Assembly (NCBI GenBank): GCA_003999685.1
Contig: CP021229.1
Span: 434,001-498,000 of the forward strand
Length of the DNA stretch: 64,000 bases
DNA from: Taiwanofungus camphoratus
Taxonomy: Eukaryota; Basidiomycota; Agaricomycetes; Polyporales; Taiwanofungaceae
Direction of reading: 5' to 3'
Part shown: in pieces, positions 31,871 to 63,251 of the stretch
Numbering within the stretch: position 1 is the first letter of the stretch
Layout: the number at the start of each line of letters is the position of its first letter
Program-made: the position numbers and the translations under genes
The notes under the pieces: model-generated
Told to the model about the DNA's origin: nothing
Databases searched by the model: none
The model's input: the letters and a program-made list of their open reading frames with translations, nothing else

Positions 31871-32137
31871 TCATCGTAAATGGATCGTGGCGATATGATG
31901 GCCAAAGCTTCCGTAGTCCATCAGTCTAGCACAACCAGAGTTCCCATGGCTCCACTGACAGAGACCCACGTTCTTCTTGTGCCAAGGAGAACTATTGAAG
32001 TGATACTGCCGCAAGTGTTGCTCGACGCCTGCGGGAGTCCGATCATGAATATGAGCACTGCAGGACCCCTGGTTCCAATGACAACGTGCTGGTGCCTGCG
32101 CCGGAAGCACCTGTCCCCGAAGTAAAGGAGTATTCAT
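31871..32137 (-). pseudogene. Truncated member of the C-x-W-x-C three-finger zinc-finger family (member 1)
   Basis: A single 88-residue frame starting MNTPLLRGQ. It retains finger 1 (C-H-W-N-Q-G-S-C, then EQHLRQYH) and finger 2 (C-Q-W, then C, then GHHIATIH), but stops two residues after finger 2, exactly where the other members continue into a third finger. No third finger was found in the following 150 bp in any frame. Finger 2 also has GHHIA where intact members have KHIA or KHVA. No upstream exons with the Ser/Gln-rich character seen in the larger members were found. It may be a decayed copy or a short two-finger product; decay seems more likely. Confidence 0.65.
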
Positions 32138-33506
32138 GGTTGTAGACGAGACGGAGTGGCGAAGATGAAGGAAGCTTTTACAACGTGATCAGGGCATGTG
32201 TAGAGTACCATTCCTTCCACTCACACTGATTGTACTTTCACTATTCCAGCAAAGGTGAGACTCAATAGATGACCTCCTCGCGTTATGATTATCTTGCGAG
32301 ATAGCTGGACCGTTGCGTATCGTGGAACCCGGCGACGTTCGGCTGATACGCCATGAGTTATCGACCGTAATAATACGATAACCAGTGCGGGCTTACCGAA
32401 CTGCTATCGTATCGAGAATGGTACGGGGATGCGTCCGACACTTCCTGGTAAGAGGTGACTTAGTGATCTGGGCTGGAGATCAAAGCAGAGGGACGAGTCT
32501 GGTGGGCGTCTCCGTGAATTCATTGCTCAGAGGTGAAGGCATCTTATACGAAAGCCAAACCTGCTCCAAGTCGCAGCCATGATCGGGTGACAGCTGCTAT
32601 CTAGTATATGATTTGGGCCCATCTTCGAATGAGAATAAGCGGACGCATGGTCTCGAGACTGACAAATCACCCAGCGCCCGGCTCTCATTGTTGTCTGTGA
32701 CATCACCATAGGACTAAACCAGGCTCTGACATTTGAGACGAGATGCGATTTGGCAAGTCTAGCGCTGCGTGAACTGTGCATCGTAGGGAGGGATTTGATT
32801 GGCGCCCTACTGGCGCTTAAGTCAGGTTTTTGATGCCTGCACAACCGGAGCGGCGGCTCAGCCTAACCGGTAGGGAGCCAACCGGATTCGAACCATCGAC
32901 CGTATACTCGCATCGTAGGCTGTTCAGCAGCAGGAGCAACTTGATTACGTACTTACTCAGCGGCCCTTCCGATGTTAGTCGACTCAAGAAATTAGAATCT
33001 TTTAGTATGTGCGATCCATCTACTAAACTCACAGTGATTCCCCAAATTTAATTTCAAGCGTATCATTCAGCCATAATTTTCTTCTTCAGTCATTATCATT
33101 TTCCTCTGATATGTATCACATAAGTCAAAGCATTGCATCCCTGACAATATCGCAAATCTCGCAGTCCCGGATCACCCATCTAGTACATAAGGGCCTAGGC
33201 CTCAGCGCTCAGCATTCACCCACTGATTTGTAGCTCCAATGGGTGTGAACAACATTTCATACAACTTGCCTGTTCAGTCAAGACAAGCCATTCGATATGA
33301 CCGCGTATCCCGAAGACACCGATCAGATTCATAAGTCACTGGTTTAAAATCTGAATGCTTTCCAAATAGCAATCTCTTGAAATTGTCATCTAACCGCACC
33401 GAGCGGTCGAAATCAGACGTCGACCCAGAAGACGCCTAGATTATTCTTTTTCATGTGCATTGATTTGAACGAGACATTTAAACACCGCACCTCTTTCGCT
33501 CGGGAC
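32138..33506. other. Intergenic, holding only a tRNA-like relic
   Basis: No protein gene seen. The Pol III-like motifs at 32884-32961 are listed separately; the remainder shows no repeat or open frame of note. Confidence 0.35.
32876..32970 (-). pseudogene. tRNA-like relic (class II-like) or SINE head
   Basis: On the minus strand an exact Pol III B box, GGTTCGAATCC, lies at 32894-32884, and an A-box-like GCTGAGTAAG lies at 32961-32952, about 67 nt upstream, a spacing suited to a Ser/Leu-type tRNA. The acceptor stem pairs in only about three of seven positions and no clean anticodon arm can be drawn. It is therefore better called a decayed tRNA or tRNA-derived short element than a working gene. 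Confidence 0.3.
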
Positions 33507-33867
33507 TAGTCATCAGGAAAACCGGAAATCCACTGACGGGCTGATGTCAGTGATTTCAGAGGCCTCAGAAGCCTTCAGTGGCCGTCAGAAGCGATCAGTT
33601 GGTCAGCTGTCAGAACCTGAAAATTTCGGGGCTTTCTAGTACTCAGATTTCTCAGAGCCTAAACTTTCAATCTCATATTACACAACTTCCTGGGCACATA
33701 TCATAGTAGAACTGGTACCAAATGTTTCAATAGTATATTAAATATATTTTTACAGAAGCACTAAGAAAAATATTGAGATGTGCTCATTTGAGAGCCAAAA
33801 GAGTATATTTCGGTCAGAGGCTTCAGATGGTCAGGTGATCAGCAATTTCCACTTTTCCTGATGACTA
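33507..33867. mobile_element. TA-flanked MITE with about 20-bp terminal inverted repeats (MITE-1)
   Basis: Terminal inverted repeats begin GTCATCAGGAAAA at 33509 and at 33865 (reverse), followed by CCGGAAAT versus GTGGAAAT. Both ends abut TA inside the same palindromic CTAG, consistent with a Tc1/mariner-type TA duplication (33507-33508 and 33866-33867). The 357-bp interior is non-coding and rich in GTCAG/CTGAC motifs near both ends. Because CTAG is palindromic, a 4-bp CTAG duplication cannot be excluded. Confidence 0.7.
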
Positions 33868-34301
33868 GATTGAACACTTTAGTAAGCGATAAGTGAGACC
33901 TACACGAGGCGCTCTCCAGATAGCTTATGAAGCTTATTTGACCTTGTCAGGTGCGTTTTTGTCACCGCTTCAAGTGATGAACAACGTCGCCAGGAGACGG
34001 AACCTTCCACTTATCACAGATAAGACAGCGTTACAAGTCATCACAAGCACCGGAGCTTCTTAAACTGTGTGATACTGCAGTATGCTTTGACTGCGAGATA
34101 AATGAGCTCCTGCGGAAGCTTGAGAAACTCGAACGCCGCTGGCCCGGGAGCTTCATCGGTTGTGAAACTTCACTGAGGCCTGCATGGAAAGATGTGTAGC
34201 ACAACGCACAATATTATTCCTCCGCCAACCACATCATCAAAAGTATCAAGAGAGGTAACCAACTAACGTTTCTAATGATATCAAAGATGTAAGCAACTCA
34301 T
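33868..34301. other. Spacer between two MITEs
   Basis: About 430 bp of non-coding sequence. No gene, repeat or RNA recognised. Confidence 0.35.
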
Positions 34302-34634
34302 TAGAGCGTATCTGCAGGGACCCTTCAAAGTTTTGCTCCACTTGATTCAGCCATTGGCTCACTGCTAAAATGCCCCGTAGAGTAAATGAAATACAGTAAA
34401 TTTTGGAGCCATTTCTAAACAAGATGCACTGGCTTGAATTATATGACTAATTTCCGTTCATCATAATGCACTGGACCCAGTTGACAGTCAGACAGAGGTA
34501 CCAGGGGGCATGCTCCGTTACCGTTGAGCACCGACTGCCTCGAAGATAGTTCAAAGTGATGCTCCACTTGATCCGAAGTGGCTCCACCCTTAATTACTTT
34601 TCAAAGTTACTTAGGTCCCTGCAGATACGTTCTA
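34302..34634. mobile_element. TA-flanked MITE with 19-bp terminal inverted repeats (MITE-2)
   Basis: Ends read GAGCGTATCTGCAGGGACC at 34304 and, on the opposite strand from 34632, GAACGTATCTGCAGGGACC: one mismatch in 19. TA flanks both ends (34302-34303 and 34633-34634). The 329-bp interior has no coding capacity and includes a repeated TGCTCCACTTGAT motif preceded by TCAAAGT. Small size, TA duplication and high terminal identity point to a non-autonomous Tc1/mariner-like element that moved fairly recently. Confidence 0.75.
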
Positions 34635-34955
34635 TTGTTCGTCGAGTAGGAACGTCGTAGTGTTGTAATCTATTTCATGGTTAATTCCAATTTGTCATAT
34701 TGTTGTAGATAAATTCGCACCGAGGGAAGACGATAATATTCTGAGGCTCAGAAGGAGCCGTTTATATACTACTAAGTCATAAAGCATTCTAACTAGAGTA
34801 GCGGGAGACAAAGATCCTTGTGTGATGTTAGTTCATAATGGATCTCGTTCAAAGTCCTTTGAGCGTGGATAAAGTGAACGCGCCAAAGCGGCCGCACCAT
34901 ACTGGCGTCGGTTGTCTTCATACAAAGCGGAAACTCTAACATGTCACCCATCCTC

Positions 34956-36333
34956 TCACAAGCATATGACCCGCGGACAGCAATCCTTTTGATGCCGCCT
35001 CAATGCATCCTTTCTACTGAAGACCCTCTTGCAAACAGAACACGTTTGTCTTGTGCTCTTGAGGTGTACGGCAGCAATATGCTTGCCTATGTTTTCCAAT
35101 TTGATATTCTTGAAGCACCCGTTCCATAAGCAGATTACGCGCCGCCTCTTGTCGTGCCCGTGTGTCGTCTGAACCAAATGACTTTGCTCAAGGTGACGGC
35201 TGATCCCACGAGGGGTGAGATCAGTCAGTGCGTCAACGCAGGAACCATCCCAACAACACCTTGGGTTGTCAACGAGGTTCTGAGGGCTTCGCGGAGTCTC
35301 AGTGACGGACAGGGGATTAGTCGTGATCATAGCTGCGCCTGAGTATGAGGGCGGTTGGGACACGGAGGAAGGATGAACCAGTGAGTTTGAGACGAATGCG
35401 GAATTGGCGGAAAAATTAGCAGCAGAGGCGTTTGGGAGGGTATATGGCAGTTGTTGAAGATGCACCGGGACCGTGTAGTCATTGTCCATGAATTGTGACA
35501 TCAACAACTCTTGCGGAGCGGCCAGACTGAATTGGCCGAAGAGTCCTGACGGCAGCCTAGACAAAGAATATTTGATTCAAGAAGAACAGAAATAATGGAG
35601 CGCCTGACTTACATCGGCCCTGAAAGGAAGTCCACGTTCATATCGTGGTTCATGGGCAGACCATATGGGGGGTGCAGCATGCCGGTGTAGGACGATTGTT
35701 GATCACCATAGTCTGCAACCTGTGAAGAAATGTGTTCGGGGCTGCTCATGTATGACTTCATAGTCGCAGTGTTGTTCCAGTAGTTGAGAGATGATCTATA
35801 CAGCAATTTGGACGGTCTAACATCTAAACAATGACTGCACAAGATCTTACTCACGGTGGACCGTGCAGACTCGTAGGTGTCGTGCGTCCAATAGGACCTC
35901 CAGGAAACGACCACGCTGGGCTGAGAAGACTACGTCAATTTCTCCGGTTTCTATCCACTATAGGCGATAATCACCTTTGTCCATAAGACTGAAGGGGTCT
36001 CTGGCCGCTATATAAAACCGACATTCCTTGCGCTTCGCCAAGGATCTGAGCCTGCTGTGTCTGTCCATGACCCCACTGCCCCTGTATGCCTCTGTGAGAA
36101 ACAGGAGATATATTGTGGCTATATGACCTGTAACATATCGGTCAGCATAGACAAACGACAAGAATAGATTCAGTCGCGAACCTAGTTTCAACACATCCGT
36201 TGGCAACATCATCACGTCTCTGGGATCCGGTGCCCGGTGCTGGTGTCAACGGGTGCAGCATCCGGTCCTTACACAGAGCGCCCGATACACTAGAAGAGCG
36301 TCCAACCGAAGACCTTTGGATGCTATAGACCAT
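34956..36333 (-). CDS. Three-finger C-x-W-x-C zinc-finger protein (member 2, largest)
   Basis: Five exons join in frame: 36333-36182, 36127-35975, 35920-35855, 35795-35613 and 35556-34956, giving 384 residues; all four introns are phase 2 and 53-59 nt long. The N-terminal 230 residues are Ser/Gln/Pro/His-rich with no fold evident (for example GQWGHGQTQQAQ, SYMSSPEHISSQV), like a transcription-factor activation region. The C-terminus carries finger 1 (C-W-D-G-S-C, then SRHLEQSH), finger 2 (C-L-W-N-G-C, then GKHIAAVHLK) and finger 3 (C-S-V-C, VFSRKDALRRH, ending in Cys, hence C2HC). C-x-W-x-x-C fingers occur in Gli/Zic/PacC-type factors, so DNA or protein binding is likely; function is otherwise unknown. 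It belongs with the members at 57.9 and 62.8 kb by finger sequence. Confidence 0.8.
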
Positions 36334-36401
36334 GCTATGCCTGCGCAGAGGAAAGACTGAGAGGACACAGAGCGAAGCTGAGTTGTTTTTTTAAGGCAGA
36401 G

Positions 36402-36702
36402 CTGGAACCACCATCACTACCAAAGATGGGTAAACCACTGGGTGGGTTCTGCGTGTCTGCGAGGGCCCACCACTTGCGGGACACAGACAAAATCGATGGC
36501 TTCCGGCCGCAGGGCTACAGCAAACCATGGACCACTGTTATGACACGAAGCGCCCCTGGAACCACCATCACTAACGAGGTTGGGTAGGATGTGTTCTGTG
36601 TGTCTGCGAAGGCTCACCACTTGCGGGACACACACCCAATCGATGGCTTGTGACCGCAGGGCTAGAGCAAACCATGATCCGCTGTTAAGACACGAAGCGC
36701 AC
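36402..36702. repeat. Two-copy tandem duplication, unit about 154 bp
   Basis: Copies at 36402-36555 and 36556-36702. Both begin CTGGAACCACCATCACTA and share CACCACTTGCGGGACACA, ATCGATGGCTT, CCGCAGGGCTA, AGCAAACCATG and GACACGAAGCGC. Identity is roughly 80 percent by eye, with substitutions spread throughout, so the duplication is not recent. It lies just upstream of zinc-finger member 2. Confidence 0.85.
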
Positions 36703-39700
36703 AACGGAAACCGCACCCATTGGGAACCTTTCACGTTCACCACAGCAGCGGTCCACAAAGGAGGCACGAGCAAATTTTTCACGACCTTGAGGCAGCAAGT
36801 GAGCCGTGGCAAGGACCCGGGCAAGCGGCCCGTGCTAGAGGTCAGTCCGCTTGAGTGTCCATCGGCGTCCATTGCCGCTCTTGCACGTCACTGAAACACG
36901 TTTCTTGAGACACATTCACAATATGGAGGTAAAACATCGCGCGTTAATGAACTATTGAGGTGTGATGCAAATGAGAAAAACAACTGCACCGAATCGGTAA
37001 GAGCGCGAGGACTATCTTCCCCGCCATCAATGAGGAATGACTATGGTGACAGATAAGCGCATAGAGAACGAACTTCGAACAAACATTGGACTCGAAAGGG
37101 TGGGAATCCAACTGCAGCGGTGAGAATGTGGTCATCGATGGAGCGGAGCAAGCCGGAAGGAAACATAAAATCTTCGGCACCACAGGACACTGATGGAGAC
37201 ATAGATACGGTAGAGGACAATACCTTCTGTGGTGTGATGTGTGTAGGGTGGTTTGCTCATGGGAGCCCAAGGTGTACGTGTCTAAGGAGGGTAGCGGGCC
37301 TGTGGCCATGTTATAATAATCTTGAACGATACACACCCCCTGCGGAATGACTTGGCTCCATATTCGATGCTGGAATAGCAGACACATCCAAGATCATTGG
37401 AATAGCATCAGCGCCCGCGAGGAGAGAAGTTGCCCGAAGGAGCTGTATTGGTGTAGGATATGTGAGTAGATAAGGAGAGAGGTTAGATCAGATAAGTCCT
37501 GGCCTTTAAGTACTTCGACCGGCGCCGGTGGATATTCCTGTCCATTGCAGCGCCATACTACCTGTTAGATGCGCGGCTAAAACCCGTACTATCTCATGAT
37601 ACATAAGGCATGGAACCTGTCATACGAAGAGATAGATGCATTCCTGGTGGGACTACATCAGCTGAGATGTCGATAAACGCTTCGTTTGCTATCCTTACAC
37701 GGAGCCTCCTTCCAAAGCTGTTCATGTTTGTATGTATCCTGTTCCTAGGAGAACACGCTAATTCCCGTCGAAAGCCACTATATCTGGCTTCCCTAGTGTC
37801 AATCCAAAATGCGACTTGTCGTATCTCCTACGAACAATAAGTAGTAGGTTCGGCAACACTGGGAGTGCGATTCCGTTCTGCTATAAGATGTGAAACGCGT
37901 CCACTGGCAGCGATCGTAGTGAAGTAGCAACCGTGGGAAACTAAGGTAAGTAGCCTCGTTTGCGGTTCATTTATAGCCTCACTTTCACGCTCAACTCGGT
38001 CAACACCAAGCTAGTAAGCCTTTTAACCAACGTCCCTATCTGACATGCTGCGAATACGTTACCTAGTCATCGACTGATCACGACGATGACGGGCGAGACC
38101 ACCCCATCTCCTGTCGACGCGTCAACGCCGGTAGCGACACCGCGCCTCGCCGCTCGACATCCAAGAATTCTCGCTCATCGTCGTTGCGATATACAAACAG
38201 TCTAGGAGGTCGGCGTTACTGACGTTGGGCTGAGGTAGCTAGACACTTGGCGCAGCAAGGTCGGTGGAAGCCTTCAGGGTTGTCTTGCGCAACGTTGGCT
38301 GCCTATCTTATCGAAAACGATGCGTCTGCGTAGAGGTTCTGCTTTCTCTCGCGCAAGTTCGTCTCTTTGGTGACATTCACGTACATTATGCAAACCCAAG
38401 TCCCTATCAGAATCAGTCTGATTCATTGATCTCCCAGCAAAGTTTTGCGACCACTTTGGACTATATCGCGTGGATATAAGCACCGAACTGCGCATCCGCG
38501 ATCATCCTCACTCCATGAGTCGACAATAGTGGGAGTCCCTCACATGGCAGCACCGGCCTTGAGGCTTGAGCTAATCTCTCGCGTTGGCGCTTATTCAGCT
38601 GCAGAACTAGGCGATGTAGAAGATAGCTTATTTCGTATTGCGTAGACGTTTGGGCTTTACAGAGTTTCTTCCCTCGTCTCTGTGGACCTGTACACTCCGA
38701 GTGGGTACATCTGTACTCTAACAGATTCCCGTGTCCGTTGTATATGATAAGGCGGCTTCCAAGATCCTCCGCGATAGTTATCCGATCATTCACAAAAGGT
38801 GTATAGATTACAGACCGTCGCACTCGGGTCAATTAAACAAAAAGATCGTGGAGATCCGCGAATAAGCACAATTTTGGGTGTTGCCGATGACCGGGATCCT
38901 GTCCACTCGGTTCACAAAAGTCGAGAGTGAGCCCTTGGATGTAAAGCAAGACCGGGACAATACTGAAAGGTGTAGTTTGAAAACATCTGACCATGGTTCT
39001 CAGAAGACCTGGTGTCATTAATTGGCAATAGCCTTGTGGAAGATGAAGAACTTGCCGATGCACTACCATCTCCCCAACTAGCAAGGCCACTGTGATACTG
39101 ACTCATGAGAAAGAGCTGGCAATTAAGGAAGCGACGGGGCTCGGTGAACTGTCAATGTACCGTACACTGTGTACGTGACTGCAGCCTGAGTGTAGCCGAG
39201 AGACTGGTCAATGGTTCGCTGAGTGTATTTGTGACGGCGCTCAAATGACAGGGTGGAACGATCGTTGAATGATGTGTGTAGCCGTAAGCAAAACCTCTGG
39301 GCTTCTCGTACTTCGAGTACGCCATGATTGTGTGTGCAGGTCTTGATTCGACAGCCAGTCCGATAAACCTTGCGTCGAGGGCTGGTGGCTGGCTCCTGGA
39401 GCCACTTGAACACCTTGTGGCCATCGGCTGGATCTCATCAAGTAGCAGCTTCAAGTTGGCAGATGATAGGAGTCTGTTGTATAGATGGCAAGGGCCGGGG
39501 AATGCCTTGTTTTCCCGTCAATGTTTTCTATCACTCTTGACGCATGTTCCCACCCGACCACATGAGCTGTGCCAACTTCAAATATAACATGGCTGTACTC
39601 AGCATCTGATAGGCCAGTAATGGCAGTACGCTGACAGCAGAGTTCCACGTACAGGAGTCTTGTCTGTTCAGCGCCGAAAACGCCAAGCAAGGCTACCATG

Positions 39701-39722
39701 TGCAGCTCGTTCAACTTACTGT

Positions 39723-39774
39723 TAGTCTCGGGACCAGCCGTTGCCAGAAAACCCGAACGTCTGGTTCCGAGACT
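39723..39774. repeat. Hairpin-forming inverted repeat
   Basis: Arms AGTCTCGGGACCAGCCGTT (from 39724) and the complement of AACGTCTGGTTCCGAGACT (to 39774) pair over about 19 bp with two mismatches around a 13-nt loop. No open frame or element boundary coincides. It may be a small palindromic element. Confidence 0.55.
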
Positions 39775-42700
39775 AGTTACTGTATGACTTGGTCCTTCAT
39801 CAAATCTAATTTATCGCTATCTAAAACGAGAGATTTAGAACTGCTGTAAATCCTAAATTTCCTTACGAAAAGTCATCCACTAGTTACGTTATGTCACTGT
39901 GCCCTGAGTCTCGCAACATTTGGACCCGATACCCGTCACAGACCACAAGCCGTCGTCTCAATCCCACAGGTCTAGGCGATAGCCACACCGTTATCTTTAG
40001 GGCGCGTGTCATGCGGGCAAAATTTAGTTCAGACGGGCAAGAAGGTTGGAGTCGTATTAAATTCCATCTAGCCGCCATTGTCCCGCCGTACGGCCAAGTT
40101 CGTCTCTTCCACTCGCTGATCCGTGTGGATCAGGCGCGTGTGTCTAATACCTGTTGCTTTGACTCAAGGGATCAACTTTGCAAAGAAACAATCTACGTAC
40201 GACATTTATGCGCCGTATAATAGGTTCCCGCCGTTGATGAATGGGGTCGTTATCATGATAATACGGGACGATCAACTCACACCGGTTCATAAATCCATTC
40301 ATCGGCAACAGCCTTGCCTCGCTCTCGTAGATTATCCTCGGGGACCTAGCCATGTACAACTGTTCCAATCAGAAAATATCCCAAGCATGAGCTACCGCAT
40401 AAAACTCTGCCTGTTGTTGCCATCCAGTAGTAGCCTTTATCTTACCACAAAGAGAGCAGCGAAGATGTCATATTACACAAACTTACCGGTCCCTGTGTCC
40501 AACCGCCCTCATGGTATCCTTTACGAATACCTTCTATAGCAGGACTTGAGAGCTGTCCATCGATGTCAGTCCTGAGTTCCGACGGCACTGCATATATTAA
40601 GGACATCAGTCTAATACAATCCCGAAAGGCTCCCACCCGCACATTTCTTACGTGCATATGTTCCAAAGGGTCAAACCGTCATGTTGTCCCCACTAGAAAA
40701 CTTGTTGCAGGTTGAAAACTACAGCTTTCATAAGCTGCTGCCAGTGTTGAATGGACAGAAACAGCGCCCCTATCGCATGAAAGTAACAATGCGTACCGGC
40801 GGAGGGGCAGATTGCATTGTCGGTCATTTTGTCCCCAAAAAACCGTTGATAGGCGTCATAGACGACACAGATATCAGACTGTCGTTAGCCCCAAACACGT
40901 TAAGCATGAGTATTAGAACGCACAACTGCAGTGGCCGATAATTTACATTACATTGTGACAAACGAGAAGACTTCGGTTCCATGGAGAGGCAGGCCACACC
41001 CGAACCGATCTTTCAGTTAAGGATCCTTCCCAACGGACCTAGAAAATAACCAATATGTGATATTTGCAAATGTAGACAGCCTGCAGGCTATTCAATGGGA
41101 CGTCGGTAGCCTTGAGGTACACAGAGAAAGACAGGAGCAGTCAAGAAGTCATTGTGACCAAGCGGAGGTCCAAGGTCTGATATCGAACTCGGAACCAGGA
41201 TCCCTGGGCAGAAATCGCAGGCGTCATCGTCGTTCACCAGAACGATATGACAGTCAGACAAAGGGATCGATGCGGACATATCACGCTGACCGCCATAAAG
41301 AGAAGCCATCCACGTCATGCTCAAGCGCTGAGTGCACCATCAGTACGCAGCTAGTTAACAAGCAGGAAAAGCCAGAGACTGATGCATGGTGGATGTGGAT
41401 AAGGTACAGGGGTCAGACGTGAACCACAGGAAACCGGGGAACGGCAAAGTCGAAGAAGGGTTACGTGGAATTAGCGATGTCCAAACTCTATCCCTAAATC
41501 TTCCGTGTTTACATCTGAATTTCATGATGACCTAGGCGACCATCGCTAACCAAGAGCAGAACCATTCGAAATCTGCCGTTGACCGAATTAGCTTACATCG
41601 TTCGGCTCTGACCTACAACTTCATGAGCTCAAAAGGCCGAGAGTGTGCCTCATGCCACACCGGAAAAGTACAAGGCGAACCGGTGATGCATCTACTTCCG
41701 CCTCTACAGAGGCGCAAAGGACATCGATCTAAATATGGAACGATACCGGCGTCTGGTGATCTGCTCCGTCAATATCATTAATGCCATTGTCACATAAACT
41801 GAGCTACCTGCATTTCTCGCCATCTTGTCCCCTTATATTGCCTCATCCCTAGTTGAGCGGGGCGCGGAAATATTGCCATCGCAGACTGTACTCGCGTGAT
41901 CCGCACTTCGTCGTCATCTTCATATAAGCCTAACGTACCAGATATGTTGGCATTGATGGTTGACAGCATGAATGTCTTCGTCTGTAGAGTAAGAAAACCG
42001 TGTAAATCGTGACAAAGCCAATACGGAAGGCATCACGGACTTAGTATGCCCTTCTTTTCACATCCGGGAGCTTGGGGATTAGATTTCACCACCCCAAATA
42101 ATGCTCCTGGCTCGTTTAGTAAGTCCATTGCCAGAACTTCACAGGCGGGCACCCTAATTTTTTAGACCAATTGCAAGCGGGGTTAGAGCGCGCCCACATA
42201 TGCCCTTTGTTCTGGACTGGGTCTTCGAACCGTCATTATCCTGTAGCATGGTACATGCTCTACCGGAGGAAGGGAATGGCACCCCTGTCATTTGCTCTTT
42301 CCTTAGCTGTGAGAATATCAGAACGTCGAACATGTGGGAGAAGACATTTTTGATCGGCCAACCACCATCTAGAAGACTGGCCTTAGGCCGTTTCAGGTGG
42401 CTGGCATCAGGAGCTACACATGTAACTTAAAGAAAAGGACTTGAGGGTAATGGGGGGATATAACCTTGAGCTTTTGAGGCGCATGCTTGTGAAAAAGGAC
42501 GTACCGGAGACTAGACCTGTAGAACAGGACAGTGTACTTAGCAGAGCGAATGGGGTCTATTGACCAATGGACATCTTTCTGTGTTATATAGATAACGGAT
42601 GCATTGACAGGAATGATGAAGGCTTCAACGGTCATCCGGAATAAGGGCAGCAAAAACCCAGCTTCTCAGGTCATTCAGAGGCAATCAAGAATGTTGAATG

Positions 42701-44249: not shown

Positions 44250-45117
44250 CTAACCACTATGTTTCCTATGCATGTGTCGTCGCATTGCATCTCCTCGAGT
44301 GAAGACTTCATTGCATTTTGTGCAACGCGCCACCATCGTCTTGAGATGTTGCGTGGCGATGTGTTTTGCAAGGCTCCGGCAGTACATGGCGCGGCCCCAT
44401 GTGCATCCGTGCCATTGGCAATACCCGCGTTTTCCGCGCGTCCAAGAGTCTGGCGCATCATTTTCGAAGTGGGCGGCCTTCAGGTGGGCCTCTATCGCCG
44501 AGAACGTCGTCGACTTGATGCGCGCGGCGCAGTTGGCGGGGCCGCCCCATAGGCACTCAACGCCGTGACCAGGCGGAGGTGAACTAGTCGTGACCATGTC
44601 ATAGACTGGACTTGCAGCAGCGCGCGGTCCCACGGATCCGGCGGTTAGCTGCGTTCCAATCGTAGGGTCGCAAATCATCGTGCTGGACCGCTCGGGTCCG
44701 AGTAATGCATCGTGTTCTGTTCTCAGAATTAATGAAAAAAACAACGAACGGTAGTCACAGGATGTTGACATACATACCTCTCCCCACGGCTCTCTCACGA
44801 CTCCTTACCACGGGCCCTGCTTCGAAAAAGGTGATTTGGTTGCCGTCAGCAAAGTCATCGATGAAAGGGTTCCAACTTTGTAGCTGGCCTATTTGCAGGT
44901 CGATGAATGAAACATTGTCATGGCCTTGCAGACTTGTGTAGGGAGAGGGACAATGAATCCTTCAACATCAATCAGTTCCTATCCGATGAGCGCGAGTATA
45001 GAATCAATATACTCACAATTCCACATTAGAGTTCGTCGTTGGACCATCTTCACCAGGGATCTGGTCTACACTGGTAACGGCGGTGTCTCTTGCATCCACG
45101 AAGTCGAAAAAGGACAT
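44250..45117 (-). CDS. Three-finger C-x-W-x-C zinc-finger protein (member 3)
   Basis: Three exons join in frame: 45117-45017, 44932-44778 and 44716-44250 (240 residues). The N-terminal part is acidic with Gln/Asn (SFFDFVDARDT, QIGQLQSWNPFIDDFADGNQ). Finger 1 is C-L-W-G-G-P-A-N-C followed by SAIEAHLKAAH; finger 2 is C-Q-W-H-G-C followed by AKHIATQHLK; finger 3 is a standard C2H2 (C-T-K-C, EVFTRGDAMRRHMHRKH). It ends four residues after the last histidine-rich block. It is closest to the member at 54 kb. The downstream donor of exon 2 (after GRAVGR) was chosen because the nearer GTAAGG breaks the frame. A TATATAA on the minus strand near 45290 is a possible promoter element. Confidence 0.8.
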
Positions 45118-53951: not shown

Positions 53952-54551
53952 CTAGCGGGAGTTGGCCCTGCACAACACAGTTTGAGTGGCATGCTGGCTC
54001 CGTGCGTGCCTGTTCCTTGAGTCGTCTCGAGTGAATTCTGAATCACAGTGAGGGCATTGAGAAGCGGTCGTATACAGATGCTGAGTAGCGATATGTTTTG
54101 CAAAACTTTGATAATACATATCTCGCTGATACTTACATCCTCCCCACTGGCAACGACCTCGCTGTTTCGGAGACCAAGAAGGTTGTGCTCCCCCGCCGAA
54201 GTGGTACGATTTGAGGTGCGCTTCGATTGCTGTGAACTTCGCAGAAGTGATGGGGATTCCGCAACTTAGTCCCCACATACACTGAATTGAGATGGGAACA
54301 CTCTCAAGCGCGATATTCGTCGCTGGCCCAGGCTGGTCGGGAAACATCGCGTTATGGCCGAGATCTTGATACCATAGGTGGTTGAATTCAGGGAAAGCAA
54401 GGCGCCATGTAGTGGGCTCTGCGATGGTGGGAGAAGGGATAGGGGCAGAAGATGTAATGGCCTCTGATGTTACGAATTCGCTGTCAGGATACATGGTCAT
54501 CTCATCGTCGCACATGTCGCAGCAGGTCCGATGGGTGTATGGTGGTGGCAT
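53952..54551 (-). CDS. Three-finger C-x-W-x-C zinc-finger protein (member 4); 5' end uncertain
   Basis: A 199-residue frame from ATG 54551. It has finger 1 (C-M-W-G-L-S-C, then TAIEAHLKSYH), finger 2 (C-Q-W-G-G-C, then AKHIATQHLY) and a C2H2 finger 3 (C-P-H-C, EFTRDDSRNRHARSQH), and is the sister of member 3 at 44.3 kb. Upstream, in another frame, lies a Ser/Pro-rich open segment from ATG 54798 (MDFRRCRSSPELSS...). Joining it to the finger exon by a weak GTTGGC donor near 54637 and a CACAG acceptor near 54562 keeps the frame, so the true protein may be longer. The region before the fingers is acidic and Thr/Pro-rich (EAITSSAPIPSPTIAEP). Function unknown; nuclear role inferred only from the fingers. 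Confidence 0.7.
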   Translation of the reverse strand: MPPPYTHRTCCDMCDDEMTMYPDSEFVTSEAITSSAPIPSPTIAEPTTWRLAFPEFNHLWYQDLGHNAMFPDQPGPATNIALESVPISIQCMWGLSCGIPITSAKFTAIEAHLKSYHFGGGAQPSWSPKQRGRCQWGGCKYQRDMYYQSFAKHIATQHLYTTASQCPHCDSEFTRDDSRNRHARSQHATQTVLCRANSR

Positions 54552-54798
54552 ATTTCGCTGTGAGCGTTTGTAGGCTCTTCCTTAGTTCCGACAGATCTGC
54601 ATCGAGGGAAAAAGACGAATCCTGATCGCCAACATTATGACGAGGCCAGGAAATATCGGCAGGATGACTTGAATGCATGAAACCGTGTGTGACGAAAGAT
54701 GAAGAGGCAAGAGATGATCCCGGCATTGGACTTTGTTCGCTGCCGTCAACTATCATAGAACTGAGTTCCGGAGACGATCGACACCTGCGGAAATCCAT

Positions 54799-57700
54799 AC
54801 AGGCCGAATTAACGAGTGGTGGATATAGAGGAGGGATCCTGCTGGAGCAAAGACAGTTGTCAGATTTGGCTGCCTTACACAACTGCAATAACATGTAACA
54901 CATACTTGTTTTGTTGGTCGTCTATTGTATACCTGGCAAAATCAGTTTCTCGGGGTCCTGTCTCTCTAGAGTAAAACGAGAATGAGAATTTGAACAAATA
55001 ATTATTAGTTCTACACTGTACCGCTGTTCACTGGCAACAAGAGAAGCAAGGGACTCTTTTGATTCATCAAAAAACATGATCGAAATATGTATGAGCAAGG
55101 AGCAAAGGACAAGAGAAGGACAATAGGAACGTGGTGAAATTTGACAATTCCCACATTGACTTATGTACACCCTGGAGGCGCCGTAATCAAGGTCATCGGA
55201 ACTGGAACCATGTTGAACCATGCGCTACCGTCTCAACTTGTTTATGGAACATAATTCGGCAACGGTGCTTCTTGAAGAAGACTCAACGTTGATCATATCA
55301 AGAGATTGAGTTCAGGAACGTTAGTTGTCAATTTATATTCATCCCGCCGTGTCGTACCTTGATTTCTTAGGTAACAATGATTTGATCTCAGTAATTGGCC
55401 TATGGACTTGAGAAGTGAAGCTTGCAAAGCATATTCTGATACTACTTTCATATGCGCGGCATTATATCGACGTACCCTGGACCTAAATTCACACCAGGCA
55501 TCAAACATGAATACGGTATATTAGAGCTCATGACGTGCACGACAAAGCACGTTCACTTACGTTACTGCTTCGAATAGAGTGGACCACAAGGCAATGCAGA
55601 AGAGCTTCATCTTACACAACCCTGAGCAACTGAGCGCCCAGCGCTCATCGAGGTCGGTAATCGGAGATCAACTTGCGTGCGGTCATGACTGGGTCTGACC
55701 TAGGCTCCTGAGGAGCCTGAATCTGACCCCGTAAAGCTCTGTAAAAAAGGATAATCAACCGTAGTCCCCAAATCGCGCCAGGGGACTGCGATCGTGACTG
55801 AACCTGGTACAGTCACGCATTAGTCGCTCGAACTGACTACACATTGACTGCTGCTGTTTCTTCCAGTTGAGAATATATAACGGAGTCGAAACGAAATGGC
55901 TTGTTAGTCAATTGGGGCGGACTAGGATTGTGACTAACCTTTCTTTATAAAGCGACTTTCGCACGTTCCTAGGTTGACTAACAGTAATGGCCTTCGCTTT
56001 CCATCTCATGATACTTTCACCTCCTTGCACGCTCACCATACTGTTACGCTCGTTCTTTTATGACTTTACATACTTGATTGCTGCGGCAAATGGAAGGATG
56101 TCTCGTTTTATCAATTTGCGACTCCCTGATTGTATCGGTCTTGAAAGTCAGTCTTCTGCAGCGCAGTGCGGCTCGGGCTTGTCGGCGGATTAGTATGAGC
56201 AGTACGTACCATGATGAACAGATACGGACATTCGTTGTCTGTAAATGATTACTGCTTGTCTATCCAACATAATCGTCTTCATCACGTTATCCCAGATTGA
56301 CCTGATACGTATAAGTAACTCAGGTTCTTTCTACAAGTTTGCAAAAGCAGCCTGCGTTCTGTCGTGGCGTTTGATATCCTAGGAAGGGGAACTTGTCTCA
56401 CATTTACGGTGACCATCGAGAGCCTGTGCGCAATTTACTCAATGTTACGCATTTGTGGTTCCATGGTTCGGCACGGCATCACTAAGGCCCGACGTATCGC
56501 CCTGTGCTTTATCTAATCAACTCCGCGTGTCTGATGACCAGAGGTGCAGCACATATGTCTATCATTCTTCTGTAAACTGAAACTGCCATCCTTTTTCCGG
56601 ATCGTCTAGTTTCGTGCTTCACCCAGCGATAGTTACAAAGTGCCATATGGCCACCTCCCATTCGAGCATCCTGACTACACTTGGCCGTTGCGGTCTTGTT
56701 CCACATGAATGGCGCAAACCATTGTTTACTCTCTCCCAAGAGGATCCATCCGTTAATTTGCTGCAGTCTTCTTGCTATTCCGTTGTCCCTGCATAGTGAC
56801 GCCCTGCGGTTCCCCATCCGGTGTTTGAGATTTCCTGATGACCGGTTCTATCCTCACTCACAGGCGGCAATCATGTTGTATGTCATTTCCCGACTTCACT
56901 CCTCTATTTCTCGTGGTCAAAGACCGTGTCAGCCTGAGTAACATATCGATTCTAATGGTAAGCGTCTTCTTTAATGACCTGCGTTTCTGGAAACTTCTCT
57001 CAGCATGTTGTCTTCTCGGGGCCATCTCATTTCATATGCTGTTCCCGGTTCCGTCTGATCATCGAGAGGTCAACTTAAAGAGTATGATCCTTGAAGACAC
57101 CGTTTTGGCGCTTTTACGACCGCAGGCCTGTGGATGATCATGTTGTATCTCGGCGGCATTACGTTCGCGCAGTCCCTGTACAAGGTGCTACTCTTCATAT
57201 CGTGAAACCAACCACAAGCTTAGGCACTCTTGCTGCGTCCATGTCATGTTGTATCGTCCCTCCCTGTTGTGATACACGAGACTGCATCGGCGAGCGGCTT
57301 CTCTCTATCGATTATCGATCAAGCTTCTAGCTGTTAGTCAAATGTCAGGGCGCAATCAGGCTTGAGGGTTTCCGCCTTCACACTGATCATAGTGGTGCAA
57401 GCTTCATCGCGATACGCTGTATCAGGGGCGGCGACTCCAGAATATTGTCGAATGGATACATTGCTTATGGGCAGGATTCATAAGGTACGTAGCCATGTGG
57501 CCGGGACCCTCAGACTTGATTAATCTTGTGTATATCTTATCCTAGTAAGTAAACACGATGTTGCTGCGTGCTGTCTTGTCTTCAATTACAACGGCTATGC
57601 GGCCCCGAGGCTTCCAATGAGACTCGTACTTGAACTCTTCGAAACCACACGAAGCAAGAGGAGCCTGTCAGCAGTATCCAGAAATTTTCTATCTCTTGTC

Positions 57701-57945
57701 CTAGTTCCGGGATGATGTGATGCAGCTGTGGGTGTTGTAAGCCGTAGCCGCCCATATGATCAAAGCATCCGAAAGCCGTGTGCAATCACCAGCGGAGCAT
57801 GGGCCCACGGGCTATAACAATTGGGGACGGTCTGGCAGATGCTTGATTTGATGTACGCAGGTCCAAATGAGAAGTATAAATGTAGGCCAATCTGTATCCT
57901 CTGACGTGCAGACCATTCAGGATTTCACGCTTGCACTGAGCCAGA
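54799..57945. other. Gene-poor stretch between zinc-finger members 4 and 5
   Basis: No gene recognised in about 3.1 kb. A 17-bp perfect palindrome, AGGCTCCT-G-AGGAGCCT, lies at 55702-55718 within a GGTCA/TGACC-rich patch that recalls the subterminal motifs of the hAT element at 60.8 kb, but no matching ends were found. Confidence 0.35.
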
Positions 57946-58731
57946 ATGAACAGCAATGTTCTCCCTTCCTCCACCATTGTAGGCGATAACACCGAGTACA
58001 TGTGAGTCTGTCAACACTCGCATCCCAGTCTTTCACGAGCTAATTCCCACCATCAGGCCAGCCGCTTTTATACGTGCTTCGAACACTGTTACTCCTCAGC
58101 ACAGGAATCATCCAGCTGCCCTAACTTCTGCTACCACCTTACCGTAGGCATTGAGATTAGTTTTAAGAAGGCTCAATCTCATGATTGAACTAGGTTGCAC
58201 TCATCTCTGCCTTATCGTCCTGAGCGTGATCATCATATCATGGGCCCCCATCAGCTTGTTGACACTGCGTAGGGGTGTTTCCTCTTTCTCCTGTAAAGCC
58301 GAAATCTCATGTGAGCACACTCTAGAACGTCCTTCGGTCCCGTTATCCACGCATGTTCTGGACATCAACAATCGCAGCCCTCCTTTGTGACTTCACGAAC
58401 CGGTCCAGTCGCGTCGCCTAGTGTGAAATGCCTCTGGGATGAGGGCTCATGCGGCGTCGCCTTGGACGATGTGTCTCCGTCAGGCATAACACGTCACTTA
58501 AGGGATATTCATTTCAGCAATCCCCCTCATGCATGGCATAACAAGCATCGTGGCACATGTCGATGGGGTGATAGCTGCAAAAGCGACGCGATGAAATACG
58601 AAAGTTTGGGGAAACATATCGCAGCCGTTCACTTGCGAAGTACAGAGCAGCAATGCGGTCAATGTCACAAGTGGTTTTCAAGGTCGGACACTTTGAGTCG
58701 GCATGTTGCGGAGAACTGTCCTGGTAGTTGA
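57946..58731 (+). CDS. Three-finger C-x-W-x-C zinc-finger protein (member 5, the only one on the plus strand)
   Basis: Four exons join in frame: 57946-58001, 58057-58143, 58194-58268 and 58326-58731, giving 207 residues. All three introns are phase 2 and 50-57 nt, as in member 2. The N-terminus (MNSNVLPSSTIVGDNTEY, SNTVTPQHRNHPAALTSATT, GHQQSQPSF) is Ser/Thr/Gln/His-rich and disordered. Finger 1 is C-L-W-D-E-G-S-C then TRHLRDIH; finger 2 is C-R-W-G-D-S-C then GKHIAAVHLR; finger 3 is C-G-Q-C, WFSRSDTLSRH, ending in Cys (C2HC). The match of intron phases and of fingers with member 2 marks them as paralogues of one subfamily. The short first exon rests on frame and splice signals only. Confidence 0.78.
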
Positions 58732-60763
58732 TATCACATTGTATGAGGGCCTGAAGCGCTTGCAGCTGGAAGTTTACCTATAGAAGGCGGTCTGAAATGA
58801 TGTACCGTTGCGATATCGTATGGGGAGTGTACGAGTAGATGATCGCAGAGCATAGCACTGTCAAATGTAGAAAAACAGTCATCCGATTTACCGCTGTCCC
58901 AAGCATAGATACCAACGTTGGCATAGATGCGCCTGTCAGTCAGTTCGTGCTAGGATCAACATGATGCGCGCTGGGTTATGCAGCCAGATGATTAACCGCT
59001 CATATTCCGGAACACCACGGCCATAATCACATGCAAACAGAACATGGACTCAGGACAAACTAAATAGGTATTCCGGACAATGTCCTCTGCCTATCCCGCT
59101 ACTTGTCACATGTAAGCCAAAGGGCACATCACATATGTCAGAAATCGTGTGGCCCACTTCTCACGGTCCCTTCCCCTGAGTAAATTTTCGTTGCTTTCCA
59201 TGAATTCATGCGAACTTGCACGATGTTCTTTATCGCAGTAGTATGATAGGTATAAAACTCGAGGAAGAGCCCCGTTCAAGGATTCTCTCAAAGACATGCG
59301 TAAATCGTTGCTTTGCGACCCGGCAGTCTTCAGTTATACTAAAGAAGCGGGAGTGAAATGTTCAGGGAAAAAGTGTAGACACGCACCTCTGCTATTCTTC
59401 CTGCTACAAATTCAACTGATCGAGATACGAAATTTGGATGAGTAAAAACTGCGCTGTGGATTTTTGTATCGACATTTTAGATCACAAAAAAGGTCTGCAT
59501 TCATGAGCTTCAGCCTTGCCGACATCTACCGCTAAACCCAGTCAGCCCAAGTGCGCTTTTGAAGTCTGGATGACAAGAAAAATACATAACCCTATTGCAT
59601 CATTCGTTCACTGCATGGTCGGACACGTGGGACGCGTGCACATATAGATTGAGTAGACACCGCCGGTTAATAGCTTAGTGTAGTCAAATGACCAACGGTA
59701 ACACTCACCGCATATCAAGGGCTCGCAAAAAGCATGTATGATACATTGATAACAGCCAAAGCGAGGCTCGAGCACCATGCGCGGCGACCTTTATTCAAGT
59801 CTCAGGGTAGACTCGCAGGAACCTTTCTCTCAGTATATACACTTGACCGCGCAGGAAGGAACAATTTTCGTGATTGAGGTAACCAAACACAGACGTGAAT
59901 GAGAAAAGATAGCTTGACGTTGTCGTCGTCTATGAAGCTCCCATCATCGGGATCGAGTACCAAAGACTTCTATTCATGGCATTCGACCGCAGTAGGGAAA
60001 GGTAGTCCATAATGGCAGCCAAGATAGACACATGCGGAGGTGGTGAAGTGTGCCATGACAGTGGCCATCCGTGAGGAACACGTTTATTCGCTAGCTGTAC
60101 AGCGGATGAATCCGATGATGCGAACTGACCATGGCCAGCAAACGGGACGGCACCTACTAACGGACTAAATAGTCTATAGTCTTTCGGCCTGGCCCAGGCC
60201 CCCCCACGTTACTATCAATTACTCTTAATTAGGCACTCCGCTCCAACGGTAATTGGTGAGTGAATAGCAGGGGGGAGACACTGGATAGCCGCTAAGAGAC
60301 AGGGAACGCGAGTCCGCTGCTACGATGACACAGCAGGCACCAGTGTCACGTGGTCCACACAGCAACTGACCCCGCCACGGGATTAGCTGTACGCGGTCTA
60401 CACGCCGTAGATATAGCCACAGCGACATGCGGAAACAAGCTGTTGTGTGGGCAGGTAGGCTTGCGGAGCTCAACGGGCCACCCTTCGCCTGTGAGGTCAA
60501 TTGCCGAGTGTTGCCCCGCATTGGTTCTATCTGGGGAAGGGTTACTCACGGAGACTGTTGTGATAGCTACCATCCGAGCCCGCGCGACTCCATACTTGTC
60601 TGAGCCCTTCATTCCTCCAAAATTGAGTCGTGTCTCCAGATCGAGTCTCCCATTCAGTTTTCAACCTGTGACTAAAGGTTATTTGGGTTAAGAAGACGTT
60701 AGTTTAACAGAGTTAGGGAGCCAAGGCGCTCTTGGAAAAAGCAGCTGTAATCTCTGTGGGTCA
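58732..60763. other. Gene-poor stretch left of the hAT element
   Basis: No gene, RNA or repeat recognised in about 2 kb; open frames are short and on both strands. Confidence 0.35.
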
Positions 60764-61897
60764 GTCACAAGCAGTGATGTGCGGGTCAGTGACTAGTCAG
60801 TGACTTTCCACAAGTCAGTGACCCTGACCCTGATCTGACCTTACTGACTGTGACCTTACCCACGGTCCTGGCATAGAGCGGCCCGACTGCGGCCCGTTAC
60901 TGAGACAATAAAGTCATTGCAGCTAACATTCAATGTGTGCCACGAGAGAAATACAATTAAGTACTAAGGATTGTATCTGCCGTCTCATCAATACTACTGA
61001 ATGCTGCTTCCTCCTTGCCGTCAACATCTAATTCAATTAGTTCATACAATTAAAGCTGTTCATCTAGGATATGGTGTGCACCCCTCTCATATCTTTCCAC
61101 CCAAGTGGTCCTGGTAAAGTCAAAAGAGAGATTTGAGTTCAATTGAGATGCTTGACGGAAATTATGCAGCATGAAGGTCAAGATCGTCATCTACCATTTG
61201 CGATAAGGTGTCAGTGATCATACAAACTTGGTCTGCCATGATTGCTCTGTGCAGTGTTGTGCTTGACATGACCGGGTCATGACCGGGTCAAGTCAAAAGG
61301 TCAAGGGTCAAGGCATGACTTGCACACGGGATCTGATAAGGGCTTAGATGCCTAAATATTATCAAGTTACCCTGCACGGATTTCGCGAATTTTGGCATCA
61401 ACACAGTAGCGGCAGCAGGCTTCCCAATGAGATATATCATTTCTATATCTTTAGCTGCCTTTGTAGAAGTGATACCAGACCAAGGTTTGGCATTGCTGTT
61501 AAGAACATAATATAGAGATAACTACTGCACCTTCCGGGCTAATTTACTATGTTTTTTTCGAAATTTCTAAATATCTTCCTCACACGTGATGTGTTAGCAA
61601 CGAGTAGGTCACAGCTTGACTTTCTGACCCTCATTTGACCCGGGTCATGACCCCGTCAAGGTCATGACCCCAGTCAAAAGTCAAGGGGTCGAACGTGACC
61701 TTTACAATACTGGCTCTGTGACCTCTGCGTTCACTACCGATAAGGAAGGGTGCCCTCTGTCACCACTCTGGACAAGACCCCGGCGTTACCCTCGGGGTCA
61801 TGACCCTACCAGGGTCAGTGGAAAGTCACTGACAGTCATAGGGTCAGTGACCGTGACCTATGACCTTGGGCACTGACCGTACATCACTGGTCACAAG
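60764..61897. mobile_element. Non-autonomous hAT-type DNA transposon with intact 8-bp target duplication
   Basis: The element spans 60772-61889 (1118 bp). Its ends are inverted: the left reads CAGTGATGTGCGGGTCAGTG and the right, reversed, CAGTGATGTACGGTCAGTG. CAGTGATGT fits the hAT terminal pattern. A perfect 8-bp duplication, GTCACAAG, flanks it (60764-60771 and 61890-61897), the size hAT elements make. Both subterminal regions are packed with GGTCA/TGACC motifs, often as GGGTCATGACC palindromes, and share GTCAGTGACTTTCCAC in opposite orientation; such motifs are typical transposase-binding sites. The AT-rich centre has no transposase frame, so it needs a helper elsewhere. The intact duplication suggests fairly recent insertion. 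Confidence 0.88.
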
Positions 61898-62777
61898 TAA
61901 CTTTGAATCCCAATTACTTTATTTAGCTTACCATTAAATGGTTGACACCGTGCAAGTGAAATATGAAACTTGAGCTCAAAAGAAGCATTGCCAAAAGAGA
62001 TATTAGGTCATGTTTAGATCCGCCGCACGGTGGGACTGATATGGCGGTTATGTCGAGACATTCAACGACGCAAGCAAGAAAAATCCTGAATAATAAGATC
62101 ATAGAAGATGTTGGGAGATAATGTTGTTATGCATTAATTACGGACTTGTTTGCGGGACAATGAAACTGGATTCCTGCAAGTTTCTGCTGTACCTGGGTAC
62201 GGTTCGCCGACGAATTGCCAAGTCGCCTCATGAATCTGAGTCCCACACGTACGCGTCACTACTCACGTACATCAACTTGTGGGAGTCATTTCCTGGGGCA
62301 TAAGGGCGTATTTTGGACAGTGCATCATCGACTTGCTAGTGCATGCTCCGAGTCAGTGTACTACAAGCTGGCGGGGGCTGTGATTTCCTCCACGTGACGC
62401 GCCGCGTTGCAGATTGCAAGCAATTCTGAAGCATATGCTAAATCAACTATGACAAGTGAGATCTGAGCGAGCTATTGTTACATCCTTTATAGCTAACGAG
62501 TATGACATAGATACGGACAAGGATACTACCAATGAGCAAATGGTTGGCCGACAATAACCAGGTTATGTATGATATAGCGCGGACATTATCGCCAAATGGT
62601 ATGCTCACAAGAGATACAGCCCCAAATACGAGCGTGTGAAACAAAACATATGGAAAAAATAACAATAAATAGTGAACGGCCATAATCATTGCAACACTTG
62701 GGGCGAAGCACCTTTGATGAGCTCCACGCCTTGATGCAGTAAAAGATAACTTACATGCCAGACCCAGAAAACGTGAC
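61898..62777. other. Intergenic stretch between the hAT element and zinc-finger member 6
   Basis: No gene or repeat recognised; contains the 3' flank of member 6. Confidence 0.35.
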
Positions 62778-63248
62778 TCAGCTTGCAGTCCTTTGGAAAT
62801 GTGTACAGTAGTTCCTTATGTGCCGGTCCAACAACCCAGGCCTTCCGATGTCCTTATGGCAATAAGGACACTGGACGCTTGCGCGCAAATGGACAGCCGC
62901 GACATGCTTCCCGTAGCTCGCGTACGCCATCTCCTTCCTGCAGTTGCCGCCCCACCGGCAGGTGCCGCGATTCCGCTTGTTCCACGGATTCGCGGCGCTG
63001 CACAGGTGATAGTCCTTTAGGTGCCGCATGATGCCTGCAGCAGAGATATCGTCTAGCAGGATGTTGCAGTTATCCCAGAGACAAGGCACGCGGTGCGTTG
63101 TGTCTAGGATCCCTGGCGCCGACATCACAGCCTCTCCGGCTAGCGAAGAACTCGATGGGCCCGGGATTGCATACGTGTAGTATTCAGGAGACTGGCTCGG
63201 GACTGAATATCCCACTGAATAATTTATCGAATATTGTTGATAATCCAT
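62778..63248 (-). CDS. Three-finger C-x-W-x-C zinc-finger protein (member 6, compact)
   Basis: A single coding exon of 156 residues starting MDYQQYSINYSVGYSVPSQS, a Tyr/Ser/Gln-rich leader. Finger 1 is C-L-W-D-N-C then MRHLKDYH; finger 2 is C-R-W-G-G-N-C then GKHVAAVHLR; finger 3 is C-P-Y-C then LLDRHIRNYC (C2HC) with a degenerate middle (DIGRPGLL instead of the usual FSRxDxL). It groups with members 2 and 5. A likely intron in the 5' UTR (63310-63252, GTATGT to TTGCAG) ends three bases before the ATG. A TATAAA on the minus strand at 63405-63400 would place transcription start near 63370. Gene structure therefore looks complete. Confidence 0.78.
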   Translation of the reverse strand: MDYQQYSINYSVGYSVPSQSPEYYTYAIPGPSSSSLAGEAVMSAPGILDTTHRVPCLWDNCNILLDDISAAGIMRHLKDYHLCSAANPWNKRNRGTCRWGGNCRKEMAYASYGKHVAAVHLRASVQCPYCHKDIGRPGLLDRHIRNYCTHFQRTAS

Positions 63249-63251
63249 TAT

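Follow-up and report, generated by a model that had tools for sequence, protein, structure and literature searches.

Zinc-finger regulators of the GLI, ZIC, PacC and Zap1 kinds share a paired-finger module, the tandem CWCH2 (tCWCH2) unit, described by Hatayama and Aruga (PMC2837044; this and the other published sources are cited from the available portions of their text). In tCWCH2 proteins the tryptophan is conserved at 87-100% per class in both fingers, a small hydrophobic residue (V, L, I or M) follows the first histidine of each finger, and the two fingers are joined by a long linker (11.8 +/- 4.4 amino acids) that lacks TGE(K/R)P; in PacC a tryptophan of the unit is needed for DNA binding (PMC2837044). 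Here we analyse a 64,000-nucleotide stretch of the Taiwanofungus camphoratus genome, hereafter the window (C10:434001-498000, where C10 is contig CP021229.1 of a 33.2 Mb assembly with 33,194,378 bases in 15 contigs), and describe an old family of zinc-finger genes, six of them in the window, in which fingers 1 and 2 match the tCWCH2 module and the predicted DNA-reading residues of finger 3 are nearly constant. Plain positions are window coordinates, and positions prefixed with a contig name (C4, C7, C8, C9, C10 or C12) are contig coordinates.

Fingers 1 and 2 match the tandem CWCH2 module

Six open frames in the window carry the finger block, scoring 76-122 bits against a family profile in which they are themselves included; no other listed match of this profile in the window reaches 0 bits, and decayed copies between the six loci were accordingly not detected. 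The single finger architecture that the initial annotation had assigned to six loci was thus recovered in each of them, and the third finger that it saw in five is present in 5/6, being absent from copy 1 (31.9 kb), whose frame stops two residues past the last finger-2 histidine. Two details needed amending: the KHIA core ascribed to finger 2 is exact in four copies of six, with HHIA at 31.9 kb and KHVA at 62.8 kb, and the locus placed at 57.9 kb has its finger exon at 58.3-58.7 kb.

Published PHI-BLAST patterns for tCWCH2 match five (strict) and all six (loose) of the window copies, copy 1 matching the loose but not the strict form, compared with none in 100 dinucleotide shuffles. When the comparison is extended to the 23 copies found in the genome (see below), the tryptophan is kept in finger 1 of 21 copies (F in the other two) and in finger 2 of all 23, the residue following the first histidine is hydrophobic throughout (finger 1, L in 20, M in two and I in one; finger 2, I in 18 and V in five), the linker between the fingers measures 14.2 +/- 1.1 amino acids (range 12-16), and a TGE(K/R)P linker is found in 0/23. 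Judged by these features of their sequence, fingers 1 and 2 are a tCWCH2 unit, and the family, which had at first been called one that could not be named, belongs to the known kind of tCWCH2 regulators.

No Pfam model was reached at curated cut-offs by any of the six window proteins, PF00096 matching 0/6 as whole proteins; in a six-frame search of the genome, finger 3 of two of the 23 copies (C10:468986 and C4:490423) exceeds the PF00096 cut-off, among 33 matches, while at E <= 0.01 PF00096 matches 10/23 members. Among NCBIfam models, one chance-like match was obtained for the 23 members.

Structures were predicted with AlphaFold from window sequences only. For the fingers of copy 5, the mean predicted local distance difference test score (pLDDT) is 79.7; for the 202-residue finger frame of copy 2 it is 67.0, with a predicted template modelling score of 0.42, the leader scoring about 47-54 per block of ten residues and the finger blocks 67-94. 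The leaders are probably disordered, as this model suggests for copy 2 and amino acid composition suggests for the others. When the copy 2 model was searched against PDB structures, GLI (2gli, probability 0.94) and Zap1 (1zw8, probability 0.99, TM 0.67 by target length) ranked first and second of 162 matches, none of which reached E <= 0.001. Similarity and prediction support a rigid pair of fingers 1 and 2, which would have the two tryptophans at its core. No match at E <= 0.001 was found in a viral fold library.

The family thus resembles tCWCH2 proteins (PMC2837044) in having C-x-W in two successive fingers, a hydrophobic residue after the first histidine, a long non-TGEKP linker and a canonical finger C-terminal to the pair, and GLI and Zap1 lead one of two fold searches. 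It differs from them in that its three fingers, the third mostly C2HC (20/22), lie close to the C-terminus of the frame and that 20 of its 23 copies are on one contig. A variable insert lies between the tryptophan and the second cysteine of finger 2, whereas the available text of PMC2837044 reports a second-finger insert only in Arid2/Rsc9. PacC comes close, being fungal and carrying tCWCH2 in fingers 1-2 of a three-finger DNA-binding domain, but that domain is N-terminal and accompanied by further zinc-finger domains for the pH response (PMC2837044), while the family's frame ends 2-35 residues after finger 3. The Zic/Gli/Glis class has five C2H2 fingers, compared with two or three in the finger frames of all 23 copies, and the Zap1/ZafA class has up to eight fingers with two tCWCH2 pairs, compared with one pair. 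We could not place the family in a described tCWCH2 class: its finger frames set it apart from Zic/Gli, Zap1 and PacC, the Fungl class lying outside the comparison.

An old family clustered on one contig

The genome holds at least 23 copies: seven at C10:466-500 kb (block A, six of them in the window), 13 at C10:897-1027 kb (block B), and three further ones, for which C4 (490 kb), C7 (2344 kb) and C8 (672 kb) provide a single copy apiece. Four protein-query searches of the assembly recovered 23, 23, 21 and 23 of the same 23 loci, the third missing the 478-kb and 499-kb copies; the count, which is a lower bound, leaves aside weakly matching places on C4 (235 kb), C9 and C12. As C10 makes up 1,738,909 of the 33,194,378 bases (5.2%) yet carries 20/23 copies, the family is strongly clustered. 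The reading of the six loci as paralogs was borne out, although six copies were all that had been seen of the 23. The seventh copy of the window's cluster lies just beyond the window (C10:499708-499989, an open 234-residue frame); in it Q, R and V occupy the sites of three zinc-ligand histidines, so its fingers 1 and 2 are probably not zinc-bound.

Blocks A and B are about 400 kb apart. Among eight long frames in four 10-kb stretches sampled between them are an IBR-domain protein at 550 kb and a reverse transcriptase at 850 kb; no Pfam match was obtained for two frames at C10:501-511 kb or for two long frames at C10:700-710 kb. Inside block B, C10:986-996 kb holds the gag aspartyl protease of a long terminal repeat (LTR)-type retroelement.

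The family tree is mostly poorly resolved (1/20 inner branches starred), with copies 3 and 4 as firm sisters (100/99). Neither block forms one clade in any of 200 bootstrap trees, and block labels are more clustered on the tree than in most shuffles (19/500 as low for A, 12/500 for B); block A as a single clade is compatible with an approximately unbiased test (p 0.076). Leaders, taken here from stop to first finger and so not true gene models, match in 3/253 pairs (E <= 0.001, small-database BLAST), and these pairs (896/900, 972/977 and 980/984 kb) each lie within 6 kb in block B. This pattern fits local duplication with birth and death.

Two other loci are weakly related to the family. At C12:774617-776948 and C12:777117-779448 there is an exact inverted repeat (arms of at least 2332 bp, spacer 168 bp), each arm of which carries a 298-residue frame with other C-x-W fingers (E 0.003); it may be either a real palindrome or an assembly artefact. 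The second, at C9:1417594-1417809, is another tCWCH2-like frame with two C-x-W fingers followed by further cysteine-rich fingers. None of seven pattern matches in viral contigs, nor of 19 in prokaryote genomes, was confirmed as a relative, in collections that are not fungal and so uninformative on other fungi.

The fingers are under purifying selection

The proportion of synonymous differences (pS) is at or above 0.749, beyond correction, in 202 of the 253 pairs of copies; synonymous sites are therefore saturated in these pairs, and the expansion is old. Mean pS is 0.815 and mean pN, the nonsynonymous proportion, 0.414, with pN below pS in 253/253 pairs. The comparison of nonsynonymous with synonymous rates (dN/dS) proposed for the window copies, run on all 23, accordingly stood in part: the direction is the same throughout, but saturation leaves the ratio not computable in 202/253 pairs. 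Among 26 distinct pairs listed, three gave values (0.17, 0.30, and dN 0.73 over dS 1.59).

Frames tell a similar story. All three fingers are read through without interruption at 22/23 loci, while in a neutral simulation (substitutions only, 100-codon block, 2000 runs) the block stayed open in 9.0, 3.1, 1.3 and 1.0% of runs at 0.2, 0.4, 0.6 and 0.8 substitutions per site; as similarity searches favour well-kept copies, the comparison is tilted towards selection. With the family profile, neither the window nor six 10-kb stretches sampled on C10 yielded a relic scoring above 2.7 bits. These substitution and frame patterns indicate that the fingers are old and maintained by purifying selection, in line with the earlier suggestion of selection on fingers amid little-conserved surroundings.

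Predicted DNA-reading residues of finger 3 are nearly constant

Finger 3 starts seven residues on from finger 2 in 20 of the 22 copies that have it, and its last ligand is a cysteine in 20/22, making it a C2HC finger in most copies; the frame closes no more than eight residues after that ligand in 17/22. In its helix, 20/22 copies have R(-1), D(2) and R(6) at once, a combination seen in 0/9 other fingers from five of eight fetched PF00096 loci of the genome, a small control. Mean entropy is 0.78 bits at positions -1, 2, 3 and 6 compared with 3.03 at positions 1, 5, 9 and 10 (3.27 and 3.10 at positions 1 and 5). When the 79 well-filled columns of the finger block that are neither ligands nor tryptophans are ordered by conservation, positions -1, 6 and 2 come second, third and fifth, with entropies of 0.27, 0.27 and 0.53 bits; of 100,000 column triples drawn at random, 16 do as well, with the caveat that the triple was picked after the columns had been seen. 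Finger 1 is intermediate, its contact positions being somewhat more conserved than other exposed ones (1.35 vs 2.14 bits).

Since R(-1), D(2) and R(6) are kept in 20/22 copies, identical or overlapping core sites are expected for the paralogs, and the conservation of these contacts argues against an expansion that gave each copy its own DNA target. In the zinc-finger recognition code, arginine at -1 and at 6 reads G. The initial suggestion that these genes perhaps encode DNA-binding factors is plausible from the sequence, as it is through finger 3 that the 23-copy profile matches classical DNA-binding fingers among PDB chains, and the recognition helix of this finger is kept.

We consider it fairly probable that the six loci belong to an old family, with 23 members in all, of small DNA-binding proteins that share a core site. 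Each protein would consist of a variable, probably disordered N-terminal leader, the tCWCH2 pair and, after a gap of seven residues, one recognition finger that is C2HC in most cases, so that the fingers sit at the C-terminal end of the frame. Finger 3, perhaps aided by finger 2, would enter the major groove and read a short G-rich core whose two outer bases are G, while the tCWCH2 pair would cap and position this finger. The leader could recruit or block partners and so set the output; paralogs that differ in leader and expression may act as competing regulators.

Several observations weigh against this account. Across the family, the tCWCH2 patterns fit fewer members (strict 7/23, loose 16/23); by eye, the misses come mainly from longer inserts between the tryptophan and second cysteine of finger 2, and otherwise from two copies with F instead of W and one that has lost ligands. 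The fold search with the fingers-only model of copy 5 ranks a CTCF chain first by E-value, GLI fourth and Zap1 ninth, although 1zw8 has the highest probability and TM-scores among the best 50 rows, and Foldseek with either model gave no match at E <= 0.001. ZIC3 (2RPC), the third tCWCH2 structure named beside GLI and Zap1 (PMC2837044), is absent from the best 50 rows of both searches. A sequence profile of all 23 copies matches mainly ordinary fingers among PDB chains, via finger 3, and its best 60 of 134 matches include no chain of GLI, ZIC or Zap1; a six-copy profile reaches GLI at E 0.014 across the whole block. As for DNA reading, one of the main contacts of finger 3, position 3, is variable at 2.06 bits (19/22 copies have S, A or T there), so the middle base may differ; the contact positions of finger 2 are less conserved than its other exposed ones (1.96 vs 1.34 bits); and the C10:1019 kb copy has an altered finger-3 helix. 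Finally, drifted copies exist, namely the C10:499.7 kb copy with its three lost ligand histidines and copy 1, which has lost finger 3.

Setting and gene structure of the window copies

The copies lie in sparse DNA, as had been proposed. Stop-to-stop frames of at least 100 residues, summed over six frames with the finger genes included, amount to 0.49 times the region length in 32-64 kb vs 1.16 times in 1-31 kb, and none of 63 other frames of at least 85 residues in 31-64 kb has a Pfam match at E <= 0.01. Ordinary gene-bearing DNA makes up the first half of the window, where the ten frames scanned include kinases, a BIR protein, a WAPL-like protein and royal-jelly-type proteins. The genome as a whole has 60 matches to DUF6533, a domain typical of Agaricomycetes; 14 control genomes gave none, but as no fungus is known to be among them they do not bear on that link. 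Two adjacent frames with royal-jelly-protein (MRJP) domains at 26484-30474 are likely to be a tandem duplication, and two adjacent protein-kinase genes at 10463-14224 have a like layout.

The copies are dispersed on both strands and, as first described, form no simple tandem array: a repeat finder run over 30-64 kb detected no DNA-level duplication among them. We rejected a recent tandem array, there being no inter-copy DNA repeats and DNA similarity being limited to the finger block and one dispersed repeat. That repeat, of about 355 bp, lies at 33511-33864 between copies 1 and 2; it has 34 further matching rows genome-wide, many of them partial, at 71-100% identity, and one adjoins the C10:1019 kb copy. 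A pair of 114-bp direct repeats, 86% alike with starts 147 bp apart, occupies 36440-36700. In the two intergenic stretches tested (35.7-44.1 and 46-52 kb) the DNA is nearly single-copy, with five short matches elsewhere (56-408 bp); with these and the 63 frames without a Pfam match, a transposon nest is unsupported.

Table 1. Positions of the six window copies and of their predicted exons and introns (window coordinates).
Feature	Position	Strand	Description
Copy 1	31871..32137	-	Two-finger, tCWCH2 only; first ATG 32137; profile 76.1 bits, profile positions 1-73
Copy 2	34956..35564	-	Three fingers at 34968-35258; third finger C2HC; leader predicted disordered; profile 99.4 bits
Copy 2 predicted intron, 56 nt	35557..35612	-	GTAAGT...CTAG; joins upstream exon open in frame
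Copy 2 probable upstream (leader) exon, start approximate	35613..35929	-	Open frame 35612-35929; in-frame across predicted intron
Copy 3	44250..44798	-	Three fingers at 44253-44555; third finger C2H2; profile 95.8 bits
Copy 4	53952..54551	-	Three fingers at 53982-54281; third finger C2H2; profile 107.0 bits
Copy 5 finger exon	58315..58731 (open frame 58387-58731)	+	Three fingers at 58429-58728; third finger C2HC; profile 122.3 bits
Copy 6	62778..63248 (from ATG; open frame 62778-63275)	-	Three fingers at 62796-63083; third finger C2HC; profile 111.3 bits
Copy 6 predicted intron, 59 nt	63252..63310	-	GTATGT...TTGCAG; directly 5' of ATG at 63248

The finger exon of copy 5 has no in-frame ATG ahead of the fingers, so an upstream 5' exon must exist.

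Alternative explanations

The fingers might serve mainly for contact with protein or RNA, the tCWCH2 unit being a protein-binding module and DNA reading secondary or lost. Hatayama and Aruga propose non-DNA roles for tCWCH2, and finger 1 of GLI makes no DNA contact (PMC2837044); in the family, the finger-1 helix has G at position 3 in 19/23 copies and one copy has no finger 3. We nevertheless regard this as unlikely, because few residues of the block are better preserved than the outer base-reading ones of finger 3.

An arms race like that of the KRAB zinc-finger genes, in which copies diversified towards different targets such as transposons, appears more doubtful still. The mammalian clusters resemble the family in consisting of clustered, repeatedly duplicated zinc-finger genes, and mammalian poly-zinc-finger expansions are under positive selection at the DNA-contact positions -1, 3 and 6 (PMC2604467). 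Clustered yet dispersed paralogs with signs of birth and death, the gag protease in block B and the dispersed repeat between copies 1 and 2 would suit such a history, as would the variation at position 3 of finger 3 and at position -1 of finger 2. However, the mammalian genes combine many canonical fingers with positively selected contacts (PMC2604467), whereas the family has one canonical finger with conserved outer contacts, and its duplications are old. Diversified base contacts were not found: positions -1, 2 and 6 of finger 3 are nearly fixed, with -1, 6 and 2 ranking high in conservation where PMC2604467 places selection at -1, 3 and 6, and position 3 varies among small residues. The tested intergenic DNA, moreover, is nearly single-copy.

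A neutrally decaying graveyard of old duplicates, surviving by chance in a gene-poor block, is very improbable: synonymous saturation, the sparse setting, one copy with lost zinc ligands and one without a finger are what it would leave, but the block is open in 22/23 copies, compared with 1-9% under neutral drift (with the two qualifications given above, substitutions only and a search that favours well-kept copies), pN lies below pS in every pair, and no relic was seen in the DNA sampled. Nor is there much to recommend a finger that was domesticated or carried by a mobile element and that spread by transposition instead of gene duplication. For it one may cite copies on both strands and on four contigs, DNA similarity confined to the finger block and one dispersed repeat, and weak zf-BED matches in two members (best E 5.5e-5). 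Against it stand the 63 frames between window copies, which show neither a transposase nor any other Pfam domain, the lack of shared flanks within 1.5 kb of copies (the dispersed repeat excepted) and the leader similarity of three nearby pairs, as local gene duplication would leave.

What the family may mean for zinc-finger evolution

The reading that we prefer, an old family of small DNA-binding proteins with a shared core site, can be carried one step further, tentatively and with the odds rather against it, to a picture of "same lock, different hands": a fungal transcription factor family that reached 23 members, most of them in two thinly populated blocks of a single chromosome, in which selection kept the recognition helix almost unchanged as the leaders drifted apart, giving regulators that compete for one core site. 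Zinc-finger expansions are commonly explained by changing DNA targets. Here most of the predicted target-reading residues of the canonical finger are constant across duplications old enough for synonymous saturation in most pairs, so the reason for many copies may lie elsewhere, and partner recruitment, timing, dosage and competition are alternatives. If the picture is true, zinc-finger families would have a mode of growth that is the reverse of the KRAB pattern.

Among mushroom-type fungi, a literature search, outside which subscription papers and bioRxiv preprints mostly lay, found no clustered tCWCH2 expansion described among the papers listed. Surveys of basidiomycete C2H2 genes report tandem, proximal and dispersed duplicates unevenly distributed over chromosomes, as in the present family, and the available main text of neither mentions CWCH2 (PMC12295980, PMC11433517). 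The Basidiomycota survey PMC12295980 begins from PF00096 at a domain E of 0.01, and with 10/23 members matching PF00096, surveys that start in this way could miss many members. More than half of the family falls below such a scan at E 0.01, and counts of fungal regulators that are based on PF00096 may therefore be too low.

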